Source: Nitrosopumilus sp. LS_AOA (GTDB lineage Archaea > Thermoproteota > Nitrososphaeria > Nitrososphaerales > Nitrosopumilaceae). From it: a DNA stretch of 62,388 nt. The notes below the pieces were generated by a model, which saw nothing but the letters and a program-made list of their open reading frames with translations, made no database searches and had not been told where the DNA came from. Each line of letters starts with the position of its first letter. The first letter of the stretch is position 1. This document shows positions 35,528-43,829 of the stretch, piece by piece. A program made the translations under genes and the position numbers. The stretch covers positions 1 through 62,388 of the forward strand of contig LFLC01000032.1 of the NCBI GenBank assembly GCA_001543015.1. The letters are read 5' to 3'.

Positions 35528-38389
35528 TTGATTTTGTATAGTGCCTCTACTGATAAGCAAGCTCCGCCTCCTGATGCTGGAAAATACATCAGATTAGGTA
35601 TAGTTGCTATACTTGGCGTCATAATTTTTGCTACAGTAGGCAATCAGGCAGTAACTTTATCGATGAATTTTACTGAATTTGGAGAACAATTCACAAAACC
35701 ACTCTTTTACACATTAGTATCTACAATAATTTTATCCATAATTGCACTTGTACGTGTAAATATTGTTGGACGATCTTCTATTTTCTGGTATGCAATTAGT
35801 ACAGGAATCAAGTTTCTTGGACAAGGAGGACAACAGCCACTTGCATCTAGTTTTTCAAGTTTCAAAAACTACAAACTAACTTCACCACAATTTGTTATTT
35901 GGCAGATTACAAAGATTCTCCTTTTTGGAGCATTTTTTGCAAATATCATGTTTGGATTTGCAGCAATATCATTTATTGATGGAAATACTTTTGGACTAGA
36001 AAATTTACCAAACTTATTTTCATTACCTTTTGTAACTCCTGACACTGATCCAAATTATGCAGTAGAAAAAGTTGTACCAATGATTCCTGCATTAGTTATT
36101 TTAATTCCTCCAATACTTGCAGCAATTGGATTACGTTTACTTTTGTACGTTGGTGTTCACAGACTTATTGATGTAGTTACATCATATATTCAGGATTCTA
36201 CTGACGGAAAACCAAGATATCTTAATTATGTTTCAACTATAGAAGGAATTTTTGGAATAGCAATTATTTGGATTGGAATTAATCTTTTCTTTACTGATCA
36301 AATTGATTATAATACAAGATATGTAATTGGGGGCACACTAGTTATTGGTTTTGCATTAATCGCATTTGCAGTATTTGATAGAATTAGAGCAAAGGTTCTT
36401 ACTCACATGTTTAAACGAGATGTGTATATTAGAATTCTAACAATTATTACAATTGCAATAATTGTAGCAGGTGTTGTTTCTGTGAATAATAGTATTGCTG
36501 ATGCAAAAAAGATTGAATATTTGGGTCCATACACTGCACAACAAGTTGGAGTAAACAGATATCTTGGTGAATTAAATGATATACAAGAAAATACTCATGA
36601 TCCTCAACTAACTTCAGTTTCTGCAAATAATATCAATAATTATGTACAACAAAACAGTGATGTTCTTGATGTTATTAGAATTTGGGACTGGGAAGCAGCT
36701 TTTGCTAAACTAAAACCTGAAATTGGTTTAATTCCTTATGTGGACTTTGAAGATAACGATATTCTTCGTTTTAACAATACTTTGTATTGGACAGCCTCAA
36801 TGAAACCAATTTTACCATCATCAGTTAGTCTTGATAATAGATGGTATAACGAGCATCTTGTTTATACTCACGTTCCAAATGGATTTCTTACTTTAGAGGC
36901 AACTAGTGGACAAATTGTTAATAGTGACAAATTTTTCAAACAAAGAGAAATTTACTATGGTGAGGGTGGATTATTTGAACAAACTTGGTCTGGTTATCCT
37001 ACTTCTAGAGGTTCTGAGAGTGCAGAACTTGGAGGAGTATCTTATTCAGGTTTAGGTGGATTGGATGTTGCACCACCGTTAAGTTGGATATTTGAGCCAA
37101 ACTTTGTACTTTCATTTCCTTCTGAACCAGTTCACATAATGAGATACAAAGATGTTCATGACAGAATGGAAATATTGTATCCATATTTTCTTTATAATTT
37201 GTTTGGACAAGAATTAGATTCAATTCCTGTTACTGATGGAACAAACTCTTATTGGTTAATCCCATTAATTATTGGATTTGATACACATGATGTACCATGG
37301 TCTGTTGGAAATCCATACTTACGTTTGGTAGGCTATGCACTTGTAGATTCATACAATGGTGATATTCAATTATTAAAAACCGGAGATGATTTCTTTGCAG
37401 AAATGTTTGTTAGTCAATACTCTGATCAATTCATACCAATTCCAGCATGGTTAGAAGAACAAGTTAGATATCCTGCTGAATTATTTAATTGGAAAACAGA
37501 GATGTACAATATTTACCATGTAACTGATGTTGAGACATTTATTCAAGCCAATGAATTTTATGAAATTCCTCGTGGTCTTGATACCTATTATGTTGAAGCA
37601 AAACCACCAGGATTTTCAGAAACTGAGTTTATAGGATTATTGTCATTAGAATTAAGAGGATCTCAGGGAAGAAATCTTGCAGGTTACATGATAGTTGAAA
37701 ATGATCTTGCAAATCTAGGTGATTTACAATTTTATGAAGTTCCATTAAATTCTACAACAAAATTAATTGGTCCAACTGCAGTTAGAGAGGCACTAGATAG
37801 AGATCCTGATTTCGCTCAACTAAAGACACTTTTGAGAAATCCAAGAATTGGTGATAATATTTTGTATCGTGTAGGTAATCATGATGTATACTTTATTCCA
37901 GTGTATACTGCTGGTGCTGGAGGAGTAGTTGCTCAACTAGGCACAATTGCTGCAGTTGGTGCTGCATTTAATGGAGAATACTTTGTTGGACTAGGAGAAA
38001 CTCAAGAAGCAGCATTTGAAGCATATCTGAAGAAAGTTTCAGGTGTTGCATCATCTACTACAGTAGCTGATGATGATTATGTTGAACTAGTAAAAGATGA
38101 TAGAATTGATATCATAAAGTCTGTGTTTGAGAAAAATGACATATCAATTGCTGAACCAACATCAATTCAAATTCCGTTGTCATTTAATGAAGGAGAAATA
38201 ATCTTCTTTACTGAAAATGATCAGGCAGAGGCTGAAGAATTCCTAGCTGAATTCATTGATGACTTTGTAAAGCCACGTACTGATAGAGTATTCATGTGGC
38301 AAGAAGAAAATAATCTTAATGTGGGAACCATATTAGTTAAAGATGGAATTCCTGAGATACATTATGTCTCAATTGAGGTAGGCAACTAA
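35528..38389 (+). CDS. UPF0182 family large membrane protein
   Basis: 953 residues with a TTG start; another TTG is two codons on, and no ATG is nearby. Residues about 20-330 contain around seven TM helices (LGIVAILGVIIFATVGNQAV, VRVNIVGRSSIFWYAI, IWQITKILLFGAFFANIMF). A large extracytoplasmic region follows with the family-typical VGVNRYLGELNDIQ, IRIWDWEAAFAKLKPEIGLIPYV and EQVRYPAELFNWKTEMYNIYHV. This matches COG1615/UPF0182, widespread but of unknown function. It is the largest gene here, directly abutting the glutaminase gene. Confidence 0.85.
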   Translation: MILYSASTDKQAPPPDAGKYIRLGIVAILGVIIFATVGNQAVTLSMNFTEFGEQFTKPLFYTLVSTIILSIIALVRVNIVGRSSIFWYAISTGIKFLGQGGQQPLASSFSSFKNYKLTSPQFVIWQITKILLFGAFFANIMFGFAAISFIDGNTFGLENLPNLFSLPFVTPDTDPNYAVEKVVPMIPALVILIPPILAAIGLRLLLYVGVHRLIDVVTSYIQDSTDGKPRYLNYVSTIEGIFGIAIIWIGINLFFTDQIDYNTRYVIGGTLVIGFALIAFAVFDRIRAKVLTHMFKRDVYIRILTIITIAIIVAGVVSVNNSIADAKKIEYLGPYTAQQVGVNRYLGELNDIQENTHDPQLTSVSANNINNYVQQNSDVLDVIRIWDWEAAFAKLKPEIGLIPYVDFEDNDILRFNNTLYWTASMKPILPSSVSLDNRWYNEHLVYTHVPNGFLTLEATSGQIVNSDKFFKQREIYYGEGGLFEQTWSGYPTSRGSESAELGGVSYSGLGGLDVAPPLSWIFEPNFVLSFPSEPVHIMRYKDVHDRMEILYPYFLYNLFGQELDSIPVTDGTNSYWLIPLIIGFDTHDVPWSVGNPYLRLVGYALVDSYNGDIQLLKTGDDFFAEMFVSQYSDQFIPIPAWLEEQVRYPAELFNWKTEMYNIYHVTDVETFIQANEFYEIPRGLDTYYVEAKPPGFSETEFIGLLSLELRGSQGRNLAGYMIVENDLANLGDLQFYEVPLNSTTKLIGPTAVREALDRDPDFAQLKTLLRNPRIGDNILYRVGNHDVYFIPVYTAGAGGVVAQLGTIAAVGAAFNGEYFVGLGETQEAAFEAYLKKVSGVASSTTVADDDYVELVKDDRIDIIKSVFEKNDISIAEPTSIQIPLSFNEGEIIFFTENDQAEAEEFLAEFIDDFVKPRTDRVFMWQEENNLNVGTILVKDGIPEIHYVSIEVGN

Positions 38390-39929: not shown

Positions 39930-40008
39930 GATTTTAGAAACAAAGTTCCTAAAAACCGTTTAAATATTTTATACTAATTAATATGAAAGATTAATAATTT
40001 TTTTTAAC

Positions 40009-40944
40009 ATGAACAAAAAAATTGTTTTCTCAATTTTTCTTGCTTTTATTATATCATTTTCAATATTTATTATTTTTCAATATAATAATTGGAATTCTCT
40101 AGGACCTCTTCAAGAAGATTTTTTTAATAAAAATATAAAAAATTCTAAATCAACAATTTTACTCTTAGGTGCAAGTGATGTGGGAATGTTAAATGTAACA
40201 AGAATTCAATCATCAATCACAGAAAAATATGAAAATTATGAAGTTTTTAATCTTGCAATATCTGGAGACAAACCATCAAAAAGACTTCGTCAAATTGATG
40301 AAATCATATTGTTTCAACCTAAAATAATTCTGTATGGTATTGGATTACGAGATTTATCATCAGAAAATTATTTGTTTAATGACTATCTCCCAAATCCATC
40401 AATTTATGTATCAAATTTCTTTTGGTTAATATCGCCACCTTTTTTTGATAATCCAAAACTTGTCACTCTAAATTTTCTTAAAGATTTAATTAATTATAGA
40501 AATGAAATTGCTAATTTTGAAGAACATACTCCATTTTTTCATTATAAACCAGAATATGACAGTGTAACTAATCTTGAGGAATTAGAAAAAATGTATAATG
40601 ATGATAATCAATTACATATTCCAAAGTTTGATAATAATAAAGAATTTAAATCTCTAAAATTTTTGTTAGAAAAATTTTCGGAAAATGATATTAAAATTAT
40701 TTTGGTGATTACACCACATAATTCGTATTACACAAATTCTATTTCTCAAACAGACAAAGAAAATTTTTATCACCAAATTGATATTCTTAAATCAAATTCA
40801 AATGTAGATGTTTTTTCACTTATGAATAATTATTCAAAAATGAATATTTGGTTGAGTGAAAATCATATTAGTCATGGTCCCGAAGGAAAAATATACGATG
40901 AAAATATTAGTGAAATCATTTCTCAAATTTTGAAAAATAAGTGA
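40009..40944 (+). CDS. Membrane-anchored SGNH-hydrolase-like protein (DltD/AlgX-like), acylation locus
   Basis: 311 residues. An N-terminal signal anchor (KIVFSIFLAFIISFSIFIIF) places the domain outside the cell. SGNH-like blocks are seen in order: STILLLGASDVG (Ser nucleophile), VFNLAISGDKPSKRL (Gly), ILYGIGLRDL (near the Asn block, here R/D), and SENHISHGPEGKIY (catalytic His). MBOAT O-acylation systems pair with such proteins (DltB-DltD, AlgI-AlgJ/X). The MBOAT gene at 42262 and ACP at 41091 support that role. The missing canonical Asn makes hydrolytic activity uncertain. Confidence 0.65.
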   Translation: MNKKIVFSIFLAFIISFSIFIIFQYNNWNSLGPLQEDFFNKNIKNSKSTILLLGASDVGMLNVTRIQSSITEKYENYEVFNLAISGDKPSKRLRQIDEIILFQPKIILYGIGLRDLSSENYLFNDYLPNPSIYVSNFFWLISPPFFDNPKLVTLNFLKDLINYRNEIANFEEHTPFFHYKPEYDSVTNLEELEKMYNDDNQLHIPKFDNNKEFKSLKFLLEKFSENDIKIILVITPHNSYYTNSISQTDKENFYHQIDILKSNSNVDVFSLMNNYSKMNIWLSENHISHGPEGKIYDENISEIISQILKNK

Positions 40945-41046
40945 GTATTAATGGATAATTCCAAAACTTATTTTTAAAATACTAAAATGATATTTTCTAC
41001 TAAAAAATTTTCTTATTAAAATTGATTTAAAAACATGAAAATAATC

Positions 41047-41069
41047 TAGGAAACCATTTAAATTTCCTA
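41047..41069 (+). promoter_or_regulatory. Inverted repeat around the TATA-like box of the ACP gene
   Basis: TAGGAAA (41047-41053) and TTTCCTA (41063-41069) form a perfect 7-bp inverted repeat with a 9-bp spacer. The enclosed TTTAAATTT lies 26-34 nt before the TTG start at 41091, where a leaderless promoter's TATA box belongs. A repressor bound here would occlude TBP. The cognate regulator is unknown. Confidence 0.45.
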
Positions 41070-41090
41070 CATATGTTGAATTAATATAAT

Positions 41091-41330
41091 TTGTCTCAAG
41101 AATTATATCAAATCATATCAGAAGTAATGTCTATACCACTTTCAGAAATTAATGATGGTTCTGGTCCTGAAAGTATTGACTCTTGGGATTCTTTTAAAGG
41201 CTTATTGTTAGTTGATGAATTAGAATCTAAGTTTAAAATTATATTTTCATTAGAAGAAGTTGTTGATGTTAAAACCGTGGAAGATATTAAAAAACACTTG
41301 AAAAATCATGGTGTAATTTTAAATGATTAA
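41091..41330 (+). CDS. Acyl carrier protein
   Basis: 79 residues with a TTG start. The ACP/PCP four-helix pattern is clear: QIISEVMSIPLSEINDG, the phosphopantetheine site SIDSWDSFKGLLLVDELESKF (Ser of the WDSF motif) shown as IDSWDSFKGLLLV, then IIFSLEEVVDVKTVEDI. The WDSF type is closer to stand-alone biosynthetic/DltC-like carriers than to FabD-type DSLD. Archaea generally lack ACPs, so this is notable. It lies between an SGNH protein and a FabG-like reductase plus MBOAT. A phosphopantetheinyl transferase must exist elsewhere. Confidence 0.85.
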   Translation: MSQELYQIISEVMSIPLSEINDGSGPESIDSWDSFKGLLLVDELESKFKIIFSLEEVVDVKTVEDIKKHLKNHGVILND

Positions 41331-41454
41331 TACATTGGAATTAACTTTTGATGAAATTAAAATTAATGATGTATTCTGTTTTGATATTTTAATAATAGAG
41401 GAAATAATTGATAAATTTAAAGAAATGTCAAGGGTGAATCAAAAATATTGGTGA
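41323..41454 (+). pseudogene. Truncated MaoC-like dehydratase (43-residue N-terminal fragment)
   Basis: A short frame begins at an ATG overlapping the ACP stop (ATGATTAA) and ends at TGA 41452-41454. Its sequence LTFDEIKINDVFCFD followed by IIEEIIDKFKEMS reproduces the N-terminus of MaoC/hot-dog enoyl hydratases (F-DDIKVGDVF-F...T..DI.KFA.LSGD), but it stops where the conserved SGDxNPxH region should begin. The rest of the roughly 130-residue domain is absent before FabG starts at 41462. It is therefore a deletion remnant, or a micro-protein kept for coupling. Confidence 0.6.
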
Positions 41455-41461
41455 GAATAAT

Positions 41462-42208
41462 TTGCTAAAAGGAAAAACAATTCTAATTACTGGCGCAAAC
41501 GGTGGATTAGGTTACGCTATTTCTAAAAAGTTATTTGAAAAAAATTCTAATTTGATATTATTATATAATAAAAATGATGACAATATCAACAAATTAATTC
41601 ATTATTCAAAAAATTCTAAAAATAAAATTAAAACTTACAAAGTTGATCTACTCAATGATAATAATCTTGAGAAAGTATTAAAAAAAATTACTAAAAATGA
41701 ATCAATTGATATTTTTATTCATTCTACATCATTTTCTTTAGAACACGATCAGATTATTGATTCAAAATGGAGTGATTTTCAACATCATATTGAATTACAA
41801 ACTAAATCTTTTTTCCAAATAAGTAAAAGTATAATTCCAAAAATGAAGAAAAAAAAATCTGGGAAAATTATCGGAATTTTAAGCTCATCTGTAATAGGAC
41901 GACCACCTTCATCTCTTAGTCCATATATTGTAGCAAAATATTCATTGTTAGGTTTAATCAAAACATTAGCTGTTGAATTAGGTCCATACGGAATTACATG
42001 TAATGGAATTTCTCCTTCAATGTGTGAAACACCATTAACGAAAAAATTTCCAAAAAAAATGAAGGAAATTAATGCAAATGATATTCCATTAAAAAGACTA
42101 GTTTTTCCGGATGAAATTGCTTCTACTGTGTTATATCTTTGCTCTCAAATGTCAAATTTTGTAAATGGTGAAAATATCATTATATCTGGAGGACAATCCA
42201 TGCATTAA
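41462..42208 (+). CDS. FabG-like 3-oxoacyl-[ACP] reductase (SDR)
   Basis: 248 residues with a TTG start. TGANGGLGYAISKKL (cofactor), YKVDLLND, IHSTSFS in place of NNAG, catalytic Ser in GILSSSVIG and YIVAKYSLLGLIKTLAVEL (YxxxK), then GITCNGISPSMCETPL. ENIIISGGQSMH at the end is the FabG-like C-terminus. Its neighbours (ACP, MaoC fragment, MBOAT) suggest it reduces a carrier-bound 3-oxoacyl chain rather than a free metabolite, but the true substrate is not shown. Confidence 0.8.
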   Translation: MLKGKTILITGANGGLGYAISKKLFEKNSNLILLYNKNDDNINKLIHYSKNSKNKIKTYKVDLLNDNNLEKVLKKITKNESIDIFIHSTSFSLEHDQIIDSKWSDFQHHIELQTKSFFQISKSIIPKMKKKKSGKIIGILSSSVIGRPPSSLSPYIVAKYSLLGLIKTLAVELGPYGITCNGISPSMCETPLTKKFPKKMKEINANDIPLKRLVFPDEIASTVLYLCSQMSNFVNGENIIISGGQSMH

Positions 42209-42261
42209 CTACAAATTTTTCTAAATCATTATATTCCAAAATTTAATTATCAATTTAAGAA

Positions 42262-43731
42262 ATGTTATTCAACACAATCGATTTTGTAATATTTTTTATT
42301 TTTGTTTTATCTTTATTTGTAGTAATTAAAAATCGAAAATATCAACATACTTTGTTATTATTTGCAAGTCTTTTTTTCTTTTATTATTCAAGTAACTATC
42401 TAATTACACTATTAATTTTTTCAACAATTCTTGATTTTTATCTTGGTAAAGAAATTTATAAATCAAAAACAAAATCAAAGAAAAAATTTCTCTTATTTTT
42501 GAGTCTTGCTGGAAATCTTGGAATGTTAGGATTTTTTAAATATACAGATTTTGCAATAGATCAAATTAATTATGTATTATTTAGTATGAATTTTGAATCT
42601 TCTATTCCTCATTTAGACTTAATTTTACCGATCGGAATTTCATTTTATACATTTCAAACATTAAGTTATACAATTGACATTTATCGTGGAAATCTAATAC
42701 CCTCTAAATCTCTTCGTGAATTTGCAATTTTTGTTGCATTTTTTCCATCTTTGGTTGCAGGACCAATTATTAGAGCAAGAGATTTTCTTCCTCAATTACG
42801 AGAAAAAATTAATGGTACCTATAATGGAAAACTAAAACAAATTATTATTCAAAATACAAATTTAAAATTTGGAATAACTTTGATGGCAATAGGTTTTTTT
42901 AAAAAAATATTTTTTGCAGATAATATCGCTCCACTAGTAAACAATATTTTTGCAAACCCAATAGGTTTTGATTCTTCTACTATCTTTTTAGGTTCAATAG
43001 CATCTGGAATACAAATTTATTGTGATTTTTCAGGTTATTCTGATATTGCAATTGGCGCAGCAATGATAATTGGTATTAAAATTTCAAAAAATTTTAACAA
43101 CCCATTTTTTGCTACATCGCCAGCAAATTTTTGGGATAGATGGCATATTTCATTATCTTCGTGGGTAAGAGATTATCTTTATTATCCATTAATGTTTAAA
43201 CGAAGAAAATCCATAATTGTTGTATCTGGAACATTATTGTTTACAATGTTAGTATTAGGATTGTGGCATGGTTCTGGTTGGAATTTTCTTTTATTTGGTT
43301 TAATTCATGGACTAGTAATTTCTGGACATCGGTTATTAGCTCATATAATGCCTGAAAAAATAAAAAATCCATTTAAAACAAAAATAGGAATTTTATTTTC
43401 AATTTCTATTACACAATACTTTGTTTTCTTAGCTTGGATTCCTTTTAGAATAGATGATTCTGAAAAACTATTTTATGCAATGGGAAAATTTGTTTTCCTA
43501 GATTTTCAAATTACACAATTACTTCACCAAATAAATCTAAATCTTTTTTCTTCTTTATTGATAATATTATTTATTTTATTAAGTATAATTTCTTTTAAGA
43601 AAACTGATCTTCTCTTTAGAATTTCAAACCTAAAACTTCGATATTGGATTATATTCATGATTTTTATTATGATACCAATTTTCTTCTTTTATGATGGAAA
43701 TCCAGAAGATTTCATCTACTTTAGATTTTAA
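42262..43731 (+). CDS. MBOAT-family membrane O-acyltransferase (DltB/AlgI-like)
   Basis: 489 residues with about eleven TM helices. Family motifs: LPIGISFYTFQTLSYTIDIYRG, FFPSLVAGPIIRARDFLPQL, FWDRWHISLSSWVRDYLYYPL and the catalytic His in LGLWHGSGWNFLLFGLIHG (near residue 335). DltB/AlgI-type MBOATs move acyl groups across the membrane onto surface polymers. Paired here with an ACP and an SGNH protein, it would transfer a carrier-bound acyl group to an extracellular glycan or glycolipid (inferred). Confidence 0.9.
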   Translation: MLFNTIDFVIFFIFVLSLFVVIKNRKYQHTLLLFASLFFFYYSSNYLITLLIFSTILDFYLGKEIYKSKTKSKKKFLLFLSLAGNLGMLGFFKYTDFAIDQINYVLFSMNFESSIPHLDLILPIGISFYTFQTLSYTIDIYRGNLIPSKSLREFAIFVAFFPSLVAGPIIRARDFLPQLREKINGTYNGKLKQIIIQNTNLKFGITLMAIGFFKKIFFADNIAPLVNNIFANPIGFDSSTIFLGSIASGIQIYCDFSGYSDIAIGAAMIIGIKISKNFNNPFFATSPANFWDRWHISLSSWVRDYLYYPLMFKRRKSIIVVSGTLLFTMLVLGLWHGSGWNFLLFGLIHGLVISGHRLLAHIMPEKIKNPFKTKIGILFSISITQYFVFLAWIPFRIDDSEKLFYAMGKFVFLDFQITQLLHQINLNLFSSLLIILFILLSIISFKKTDLLFRISNLKLRYWIIFMIFIMIPIFFFYDGNPEDFIYFRF

Positions 43732-43755
43732 TCATTTTATTTCTAGAATTTGATA

Positions 43756-43829
43756 TGCGGAGTGCGGGATTTGAACCCGCGGCCTTCAGCTTGGGAAGCT
43801 GACGTCATACCAGACTAAACTAACTCCGC
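43756..43829 (-). tRNA. tRNA-Gly (anticodon CCC)
   Basis: On the minus strand the acceptor GCGGAGT pairs with ACTCCGC, with discriminator A. The anticodon arm TCAGC-TTCCCAA-GCTGA gives CCC, and the T arm GCGGGTTCAAATCCCGC is canonical. It is 74 nt without an intron and without an encoded CCA. Confidence 0.95.

Follow-up and report, generated by a model that had tools for sequence, protein, structure and literature searches.

The window, a stretch of 62,388 nucleotides (positions 1 to 62,388 of contig LFLC01000032.1) from the archaeon Nitrosopumilus sp. LS_AOA, contains a small islet that carries an SGNH protein, an acyl carrier protein (ACP1), a remnant of a MaoC dehydratase, an SDR reductase, and an MBOAT acyltransferase. 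On balance, we favor the view that the islet encodes an MBOAT-SGNH acyl-transfer system fed by a carrier protein, was acquired as one block, and is charged by a second gene cluster on contig C63 of the same genome. An earlier note on this DNA had proposed carrier-dependent O-acylation through the MBOAT and the SGNH protein. This remains the best reading of the locus: the genome has a phosphopantetheinyl transferase (PPTase), the ACP serine is conserved, and the gene order recurs elsewhere.

The islet is an insertion beside tRNA-Gly

The insert consists of exactly SGNH-ACP-MaoC'-SDR-MBOAT between a TPR gene and tRNA-Gly (Table 1), a match of insert and gene set that goes beyond chance. All five features lie where the earlier note had placed them, and the SGNH, ACP, SDR, and MBOAT genes are full-length. 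No gene for a DltA-type adenylating enzyme is present among the islet open reading frames, as that note had stated. In all 26 congeners for which the tRNA and the two flanking regions could be read, the TPR stop codon directly borders tRNA-Gly(CCC) at its 3' end. Among these empty sites is that of the nearest relative, G015, which has flanking proteins 95–100% identical to those of the window and no MBOAT. Because the flanks adjoin without it in congeners, the islet gene grouping is a unit that sits in an insertion, and the simplest reading of this sequence comparison would be arrival in one event. The islet G+C content is 0.23–0.25 compared to 0.30 for the window. A chance model gave P = 6e-8 for the adjacency of ACP and MBOAT genome-wide, and 0.03 if both genes are confined to ~150 glycan genes. 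Adjacency alone is weak evidence because P is only 0.03 under that confinement.

No direct repeats of 10 bp or more were found at the islet ends. A tRNA-targeting integrase element was rejected because the islet has neither an integrase nor an att-like repeat of this length. Upstream of the insertion site are genes for a 953-residue UPF0182 membrane protein and a GATase (35528-38389), and an STT3 oligosaccharyltransferase gene is located 3 kb downstream, outside the islet.

Table 1 Features of the islet and its insertion site (window coordinates)
Feature	Position	Strand	Basis
Whole islet, ~3.8-kb insertion	39930..43755	.	TPR gene stop (39929) to tRNA-Gly 3' end
SGNH/DltD-like protein with N-terminal hydrophobic helix; predicted outer acyltransferase	40009..40944	+	Pfam DltD 24.8 bits, E 1.7e-5
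SGNH Ser56 codon	40174-40176	+	
SGNH His286 codon	40864-40866	+	
Acyl carrier protein ACP1	41091..41330	+	PF00550 PP-binding 24.4 bits (cut-off 20.8)
ACP1 phosphopantetheine Ser34 (WDSF) codon	41190-41192	+	
MaoC dehydratase remnant, 43 codons, active-site segment lost	41323..41454	+	Hidden Markov model of archaeal MaoC family
SDR reductase, FabG superfamily, YxxxK present	41462..42208	+	PF13561 adh_short_C2 E 9e-45
MBOAT acyltransferase, 489 residues	42262..43731	+	PF03062 E 6.5e-28
C-terminal FIYFRF of MBOAT (FxYxxF acyl-Tyr shuttle motif)	43711..43728	+	Comparison with relatives
tRNA-Gly (CCC), insertion site	43756..43829	-	ARAGORN

The MBOAT and SGNH proteins

Acyl transfer by the MBOAT-SGNH pair is well supported. 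The PDB matches of the MBOAT are to DltB only, and its His295 and His336 align with the conserved DltB histidines and are both invariant in a 15-sequence alignment. The FxYxxF tail is found in 27 of 28 full-length archaeal MBOATs and in all 31 MBOATs from bacterial FkbH loci. The tyrosine of this motif in PatA and DltX shuttles the acyl group from the MBOAT to the SGNH protein (PMC12148441). The sole full-length archaeal copy with a changed tail, FIYFRI, is from G231 (L159). Residues G54, S56, and H286 of the SGNH protein are invariant in an alignment of the window protein with archaeal and bacterial partners, and its AlphaFold model (pLDDT 72.5) matches SGNH esterases, DltD, and PatB.

The closest named families for the MBOAT and SGNH proteins are DltB and DltD, which raises the idea of true Dlt-type aminoacylation in which ACP1 receives an amino acid from an adenylating ligase encoded elsewhere. 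A Dlt-like archaeal locus that includes such a ligase does exist in the congener G001 (L023:3841-8949), where a PPTase gene diverges from ACP-AMP-ligase-hexapeptide (LbH) transferase-SGNH-MBOAT. We nonetheless regard this explanation as highly improbable. No ligase was found in the islet or the C63 stretch read, the rest of the genome not having been searched for one; the shuttle motif belongs to the MBOAT itself and is not carried on a DltX; and the TIGR04091 DltB score of 152.9 bits is far below the equivalog cut-off of 375. Given the low DltB score and the lack of a DltA and of a separate DltX in the islet, membership as a plain Dlt system was dropped. Further cassettes of ACP and AMP-ligase, each with a divergent PPTase, are present in G094, G164, G170, G061, and G188.

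The carrier protein and its candidate charging enzymes

The phosphopantetheine serine is kept in 38 of 38 archaeal ACPs read; a mutated serine in relatives was a point the earlier note had named for checking. That note had likewise made the presence of a PPTase a test, and the genome encodes one PF01648 PPTase (54 bits), located on C63, together with only two PP-binding proteins. The second ACP is also on C63, in a cluster ordered FkbH-ACP-MaoC-PPTase with an intact MaoC. The C63 FkbH scores 323.9 bits against TIGR01686 (cut-off 146.65), conserves LDLDxTLWGGxxGED, and has the DLDNTLWGG motif. FkbH enzymes load a glyceryl unit from 1,3-bisphosphoglycerate onto an ACP (PMC7489565, PMC8949500). 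Thus, FkbH, MaoC, and PPTase, each absent or broken in the islet, are all present on C63, and no SDR, MBOAT, or SGNH gene was found in the part of C63 that was read. Such complementary gene content suggests, without proving, that the two clusters work together. A hexapeptide acyltransferase and an XrtA-type polysaccharide deacetylase (L169:8443-9829) adjoin the C63 cassette, along with sugar-nucleotide genes; these flanks suggest that an amino sugar is first de-N-acetylated and then re-acylated.

The earlier note had considered a 3-hydroxyacyl group built on the carrier. A genome search for fatty-acid ketosynthases gave only a sub-threshold match to PF00109 and none to PF08545 (FabH), and the linked loader is FkbH. 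Elongation of a 3-hydroxyacyl group on the carrier was dropped for lack of these enzymes. Nitrosopumilaceae are not generally known to make fatty acids on ACPs.

The MaoC remnant and the SDR

The short frame between ACP1 and the SDR has no Pfam match, and it scores 14.5 bits to the N terminus of the archaeal MaoC family using a profile built from relatives. Its start overlaps the ACP stop codon, like intact MaoC genes, and it breaks off at the expected start of the SGD-NPxH active-site segment. On this sequence evidence, the MaoC fragment of the earlier note is a real remnant that would be unable to act as an enzyme. Orthologues of the SDR (E 1e-65 or better; next match 1e-29) occur in exactly 5 of 250 Nitrosopumilaceae genomes, namely the window genome, G008, G034, G158, and G231, and every one adjoins ACP/MaoC genes. 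Four of these five genomes also have an MBOAT (P = 7e-4 in a test that ignores shared ancestry). The five archaeal SDR sequences form one clade (95/97) beside the SDRs of bacterial FkbH-ACP-MaoC-SDR operons.

Proposed mechanism

The C63 PPTase would convert ACP1 into the holo form, and the C63 FkbH would then place a glyceryl unit from 1,3-bisphosphoglycerate on it. The C63 MaoC and the islet SDR may turn glyceryl-ACP into lactyl-ACP via 2-hydroxyacryloyl/pyruvyl-ACP, by dehydration to the enol of pyruvyl and then reduction. The MBOAT would carry the acyl group through the membrane to Tyr486 of its own C-terminal tail, from which Ser56 of the SGNH protein would take it and esterify an extracellular glycan or S-layer glycan. 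That the ACP and not acyl-CoA is the donor to the MBOAT is moderately supported. Gene linkage points to a glyceryl origin of the acyl group, which would then be a C3 unit. We infer that the C63 enzymes serve ACP1 and that the acceptor is a glycan, and the acyl group is perhaps lactyl, which is proposed on chemical grounds. The bryostatin FkbH reportedly provides a lactate precedent, for which our literature search gave no confirmation.

Relatives in Nitrosopumilaceae

FkbH is found in 36 of the 250 family genomes (plus one weak match), and 32 of those 36 have a PPTase. The neighborhoods of 32 full-length FkbH genes were read: a hexapeptide transferase is present in 30 and a PPTase in 29, and the gene after FkbH-ACP encodes MaoC in 23 and a VOC (epimerase/glyoxalase-like) protein in seven. 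VOC takes the place of MaoC after the ACP at L119:7548-7949 and in other g14 cassettes. The hexapeptide transferase is usually followed by a polysaccharide deacetylase. This arrangement could mean that ACP1 and the SDR serve the C63 hexapeptide acyltransferase in amino sugar de-N-acetylation and re-acylation, with the MBOAT acting separately. We give this route little credence since C63 has its own ACP, the insertion that holds ACP1 and the SDR also holds the MBOAT, and ACP-MaoC-SDR is coupled directly to an MBOAT in bacterial operons.

The MBOAT-SGNH pair is present in 29 of the 250 genomes, normally as two overlapping genes without an ACP nearby. It stands beside ACP genes in the window, G034, G159, G167, G158, and one of two G001 copies. 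In G159 and G167, SGNH-MBOAT lies inside FkbH-ACP cassettes, and in G158 it is beside MaoC-SDR-ACP-AMP-ligase. The MBOAT tree places the archaeal copies in one clade (100/100), with the window and G034 proteins as sisters (99/95). Six MBOATs lie outside the main archaeal clade, those of the window genome, G034, G158, G159, G167, and G231. All six genomes with these deep-branching MBOATs have FkbH and a PPTase compared to 5 of 21 in the main clade (p = 0.0016, again ignoring shared ancestry). Two proteins of 499 and 519 residues without a Pfam match occupy the expected PPTase place after FkbH-ACP-MaoC in G159 (L117:10326-13424).

The principal alternative is that the pair is an ordinary coenzyme A (CoA)-fed surface O-acetyltransferase of the PatAB/AlgIJ kind, and that the ACP, MaoC remnant, and SDR are insertion passengers. 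Non-Dlt MBOAT-SGNH pathways are stated to use acyl-CoA and hence no carrier protein, and PatA, which has the same tail, uses acetyl-CoA (PMC12148441). The broken islet MaoC, the scarcity of ACP genes near archaeal pairs, and the many genomes without a detected PPTase all fit this explanation. It does not explain why the ACP and SDR are intact with their catalytic residues although the MaoC has decayed, why the lineages to which the window MBOAT belongs are confined to genomes with FkbH and PPTase, or why ACP, SDR, MBOAT, and SGNH share one insertion. We judge CoA feeding to be unlikely, while the most serious of the competing explanations. Linkage to an ACP as a general need of this MBOAT was dropped, as many genomes hold the pair without a detected PPTase.

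The cluster of the sister MBOAT in G034 (contig C52, L032:5834-10721) has the order FkbH-ACP-MaoC-SDR-PPTase-MBOAT. Conservation of gene order in relatives, a test named by the earlier note, is therefore borne out in part: ACP-MaoC-SDR-PPTase-MBOAT recurs in this congener, in a copy that is frameshifted. The upstream genes of the G034 contig are intact, and a transposase-like frame is located downstream of the frameshifted cluster. The broken frames of this sister copy, the truncated MaoC, the location of FkbH and PPTase outside the islet, and the absence of the insertion from the closest relative would all be expected if the islet were the decaying and now functionless remainder of an earlier FkbH-ACP-MaoC-SDR-MBOAT operon. 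We find this improbable: SGNH, ACP, SDR, and MBOAT have kept their full length and every catalytic residue at ~25% G+C, where random stops are frequent, and the missing functions are present on C63.

Several observations weigh against a carrier-fed system. The islet MaoC is destroyed, FkbH and PPTase lie outside the islet, and the G034 cluster is frameshifted in nearly every gene. A hexapeptide acyltransferase, and not an MBOAT, adjoins the FkbH-ACP cassette in most genomes. No PPTase was detected in at least 16 of the 29 Nitrosopumilaceae that carry the MBOAT, among them the one-contig genomes G003, G007, and G035; because so many bearers have none, the MBOAT family can presumably work without an ACP, with acyl-CoA the presumed donor in those genomes. 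The lactyl step is argued from chemistry, the cross-genome co-occurrence tests take no account of shared ancestry, and the SGNH-like partners in bacteria, which match no Pfam family, were recognized by position, N-terminal helix, and G-x-S motif.

Complete operons in bacteria

A GTDB scan identified complete FkbH-ACP-MaoC-SDR-MBOAT operons with an SGNH-like gene after the MBOAT; examples are those of Pedobacter hartonius (L250) and Clostridium tepidiprofundi (L240). Pfam confirms FkbH, ACP, MaoC, SDR, and MBOAT in L250. The SGNH-like partners are 300–375 residues long, carry a hydrophobic helix at the N terminus, and contain a G-x-S motif. The 66 FkbH loci read outside Nitrosopumilaceae are the best matches of the scan and not a random sample; ACP, MaoC, SDR, and MBOAT lie beside FkbH in 10 of them. 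MaoC is present in 26 of these best-matching loci and VOC in 12, and because they never occur together, the two may be alternative ways to tailor the same acyl-ACP.

The order ACP-MaoC-SDR-MBOAT is thus shared beyond the window, without the PPTase in bacteria. The earlier note knew of no archaeal system of this composition, and we found no description of one; the composition itself is not unique, as bacteria hold the complete set. Because bacteria carry complete operons, the islet is no archaeal oddity but a reduced (truncated) archaeal copy of a wider module. A more tentative extension, which we hold to be possible and short of probable, is a previously undescribed class of surface acylation shared by archaea and bacteria. 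In this class, FkbH would form glyceryl-ACP from a glycolytic intermediate, MaoC and SDR would turn it into lactyl-ACP, and a Tyr-tailed MBOAT with an SGNH protein would form lactyl esters on extracellular glycans, with Nitrosopumilaceae trading small islets.

Relation to known systems

Our literature search, which covered FkbH with MBOAT, HAD-IIIC/MBOAT/MaoC, and archaeal MBOATs, found no description of such a system and no paper on the bacterial FkbH-ACP-MaoC-SDR-MBOAT-SGNH-like operons. The parts read of a thaumarchaeal N-glycoproteome paper (PMC12153357) hold nothing bearing on acyl groups here. If correct, the proposed system would extend carrier-protein acyl chemistry to a major family of marine archaea, give the widespread FkbH-ACP-PPTase cassette a likely role, and make testable predictions about the acyl groups of surface glycans in ammonia-oxidizing archaea and Bacteroidota. 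It would also bridge the carrier-fed Dlt scheme and the CoA-fed MBOAT-SGNH scheme with a fused Tyr shuttle, which have been held separate (PMC12148441).

The bacterial operons (Bacteroidota, Clostridia) have the same parts, order, and MBOAT tail, and they are complete and contiguous, whereas the islet has no FkbH, only a MaoC remnant, and its SGNH gene upstream. FkbH loading in polyketide/tetronate pathways shares the TIGR01686 FkbH, the stand-alone ACP, and charging from 1,3-bisphosphoglycerate (PMC7489565, PMC8949500). In contrast to those pathways, no polyketide synthase was seen here, and the genes lie in surface-glycan loci with MaoC/SDR, PPTase, and a hexapeptide transferase or MBOAT-SGNH. 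Teichoic acid D-alanylation by DltABCD/DltX resembles the islet in that a carrier protein feeds an MBOAT and an SGNH protein (DltD) completes the transfer outside. The islet differs in lacking a DltA-type ligase, with loading by FkbH the proposed substitute, in carrying its shuttle Tyr at the MBOAT C terminus in place of a separate DltX microprotein, and in its extra SDR (and MaoC). PatA/PatB and other MBOAT-SGNH O-acetyltransferases share the C-terminal FxYxxF, the catalytic His, and an SGNH partner with Ser/His; they use acyl-CoA and are stated to have no carrier, whereas the islet pair travels with an ACP (PMC12148441).

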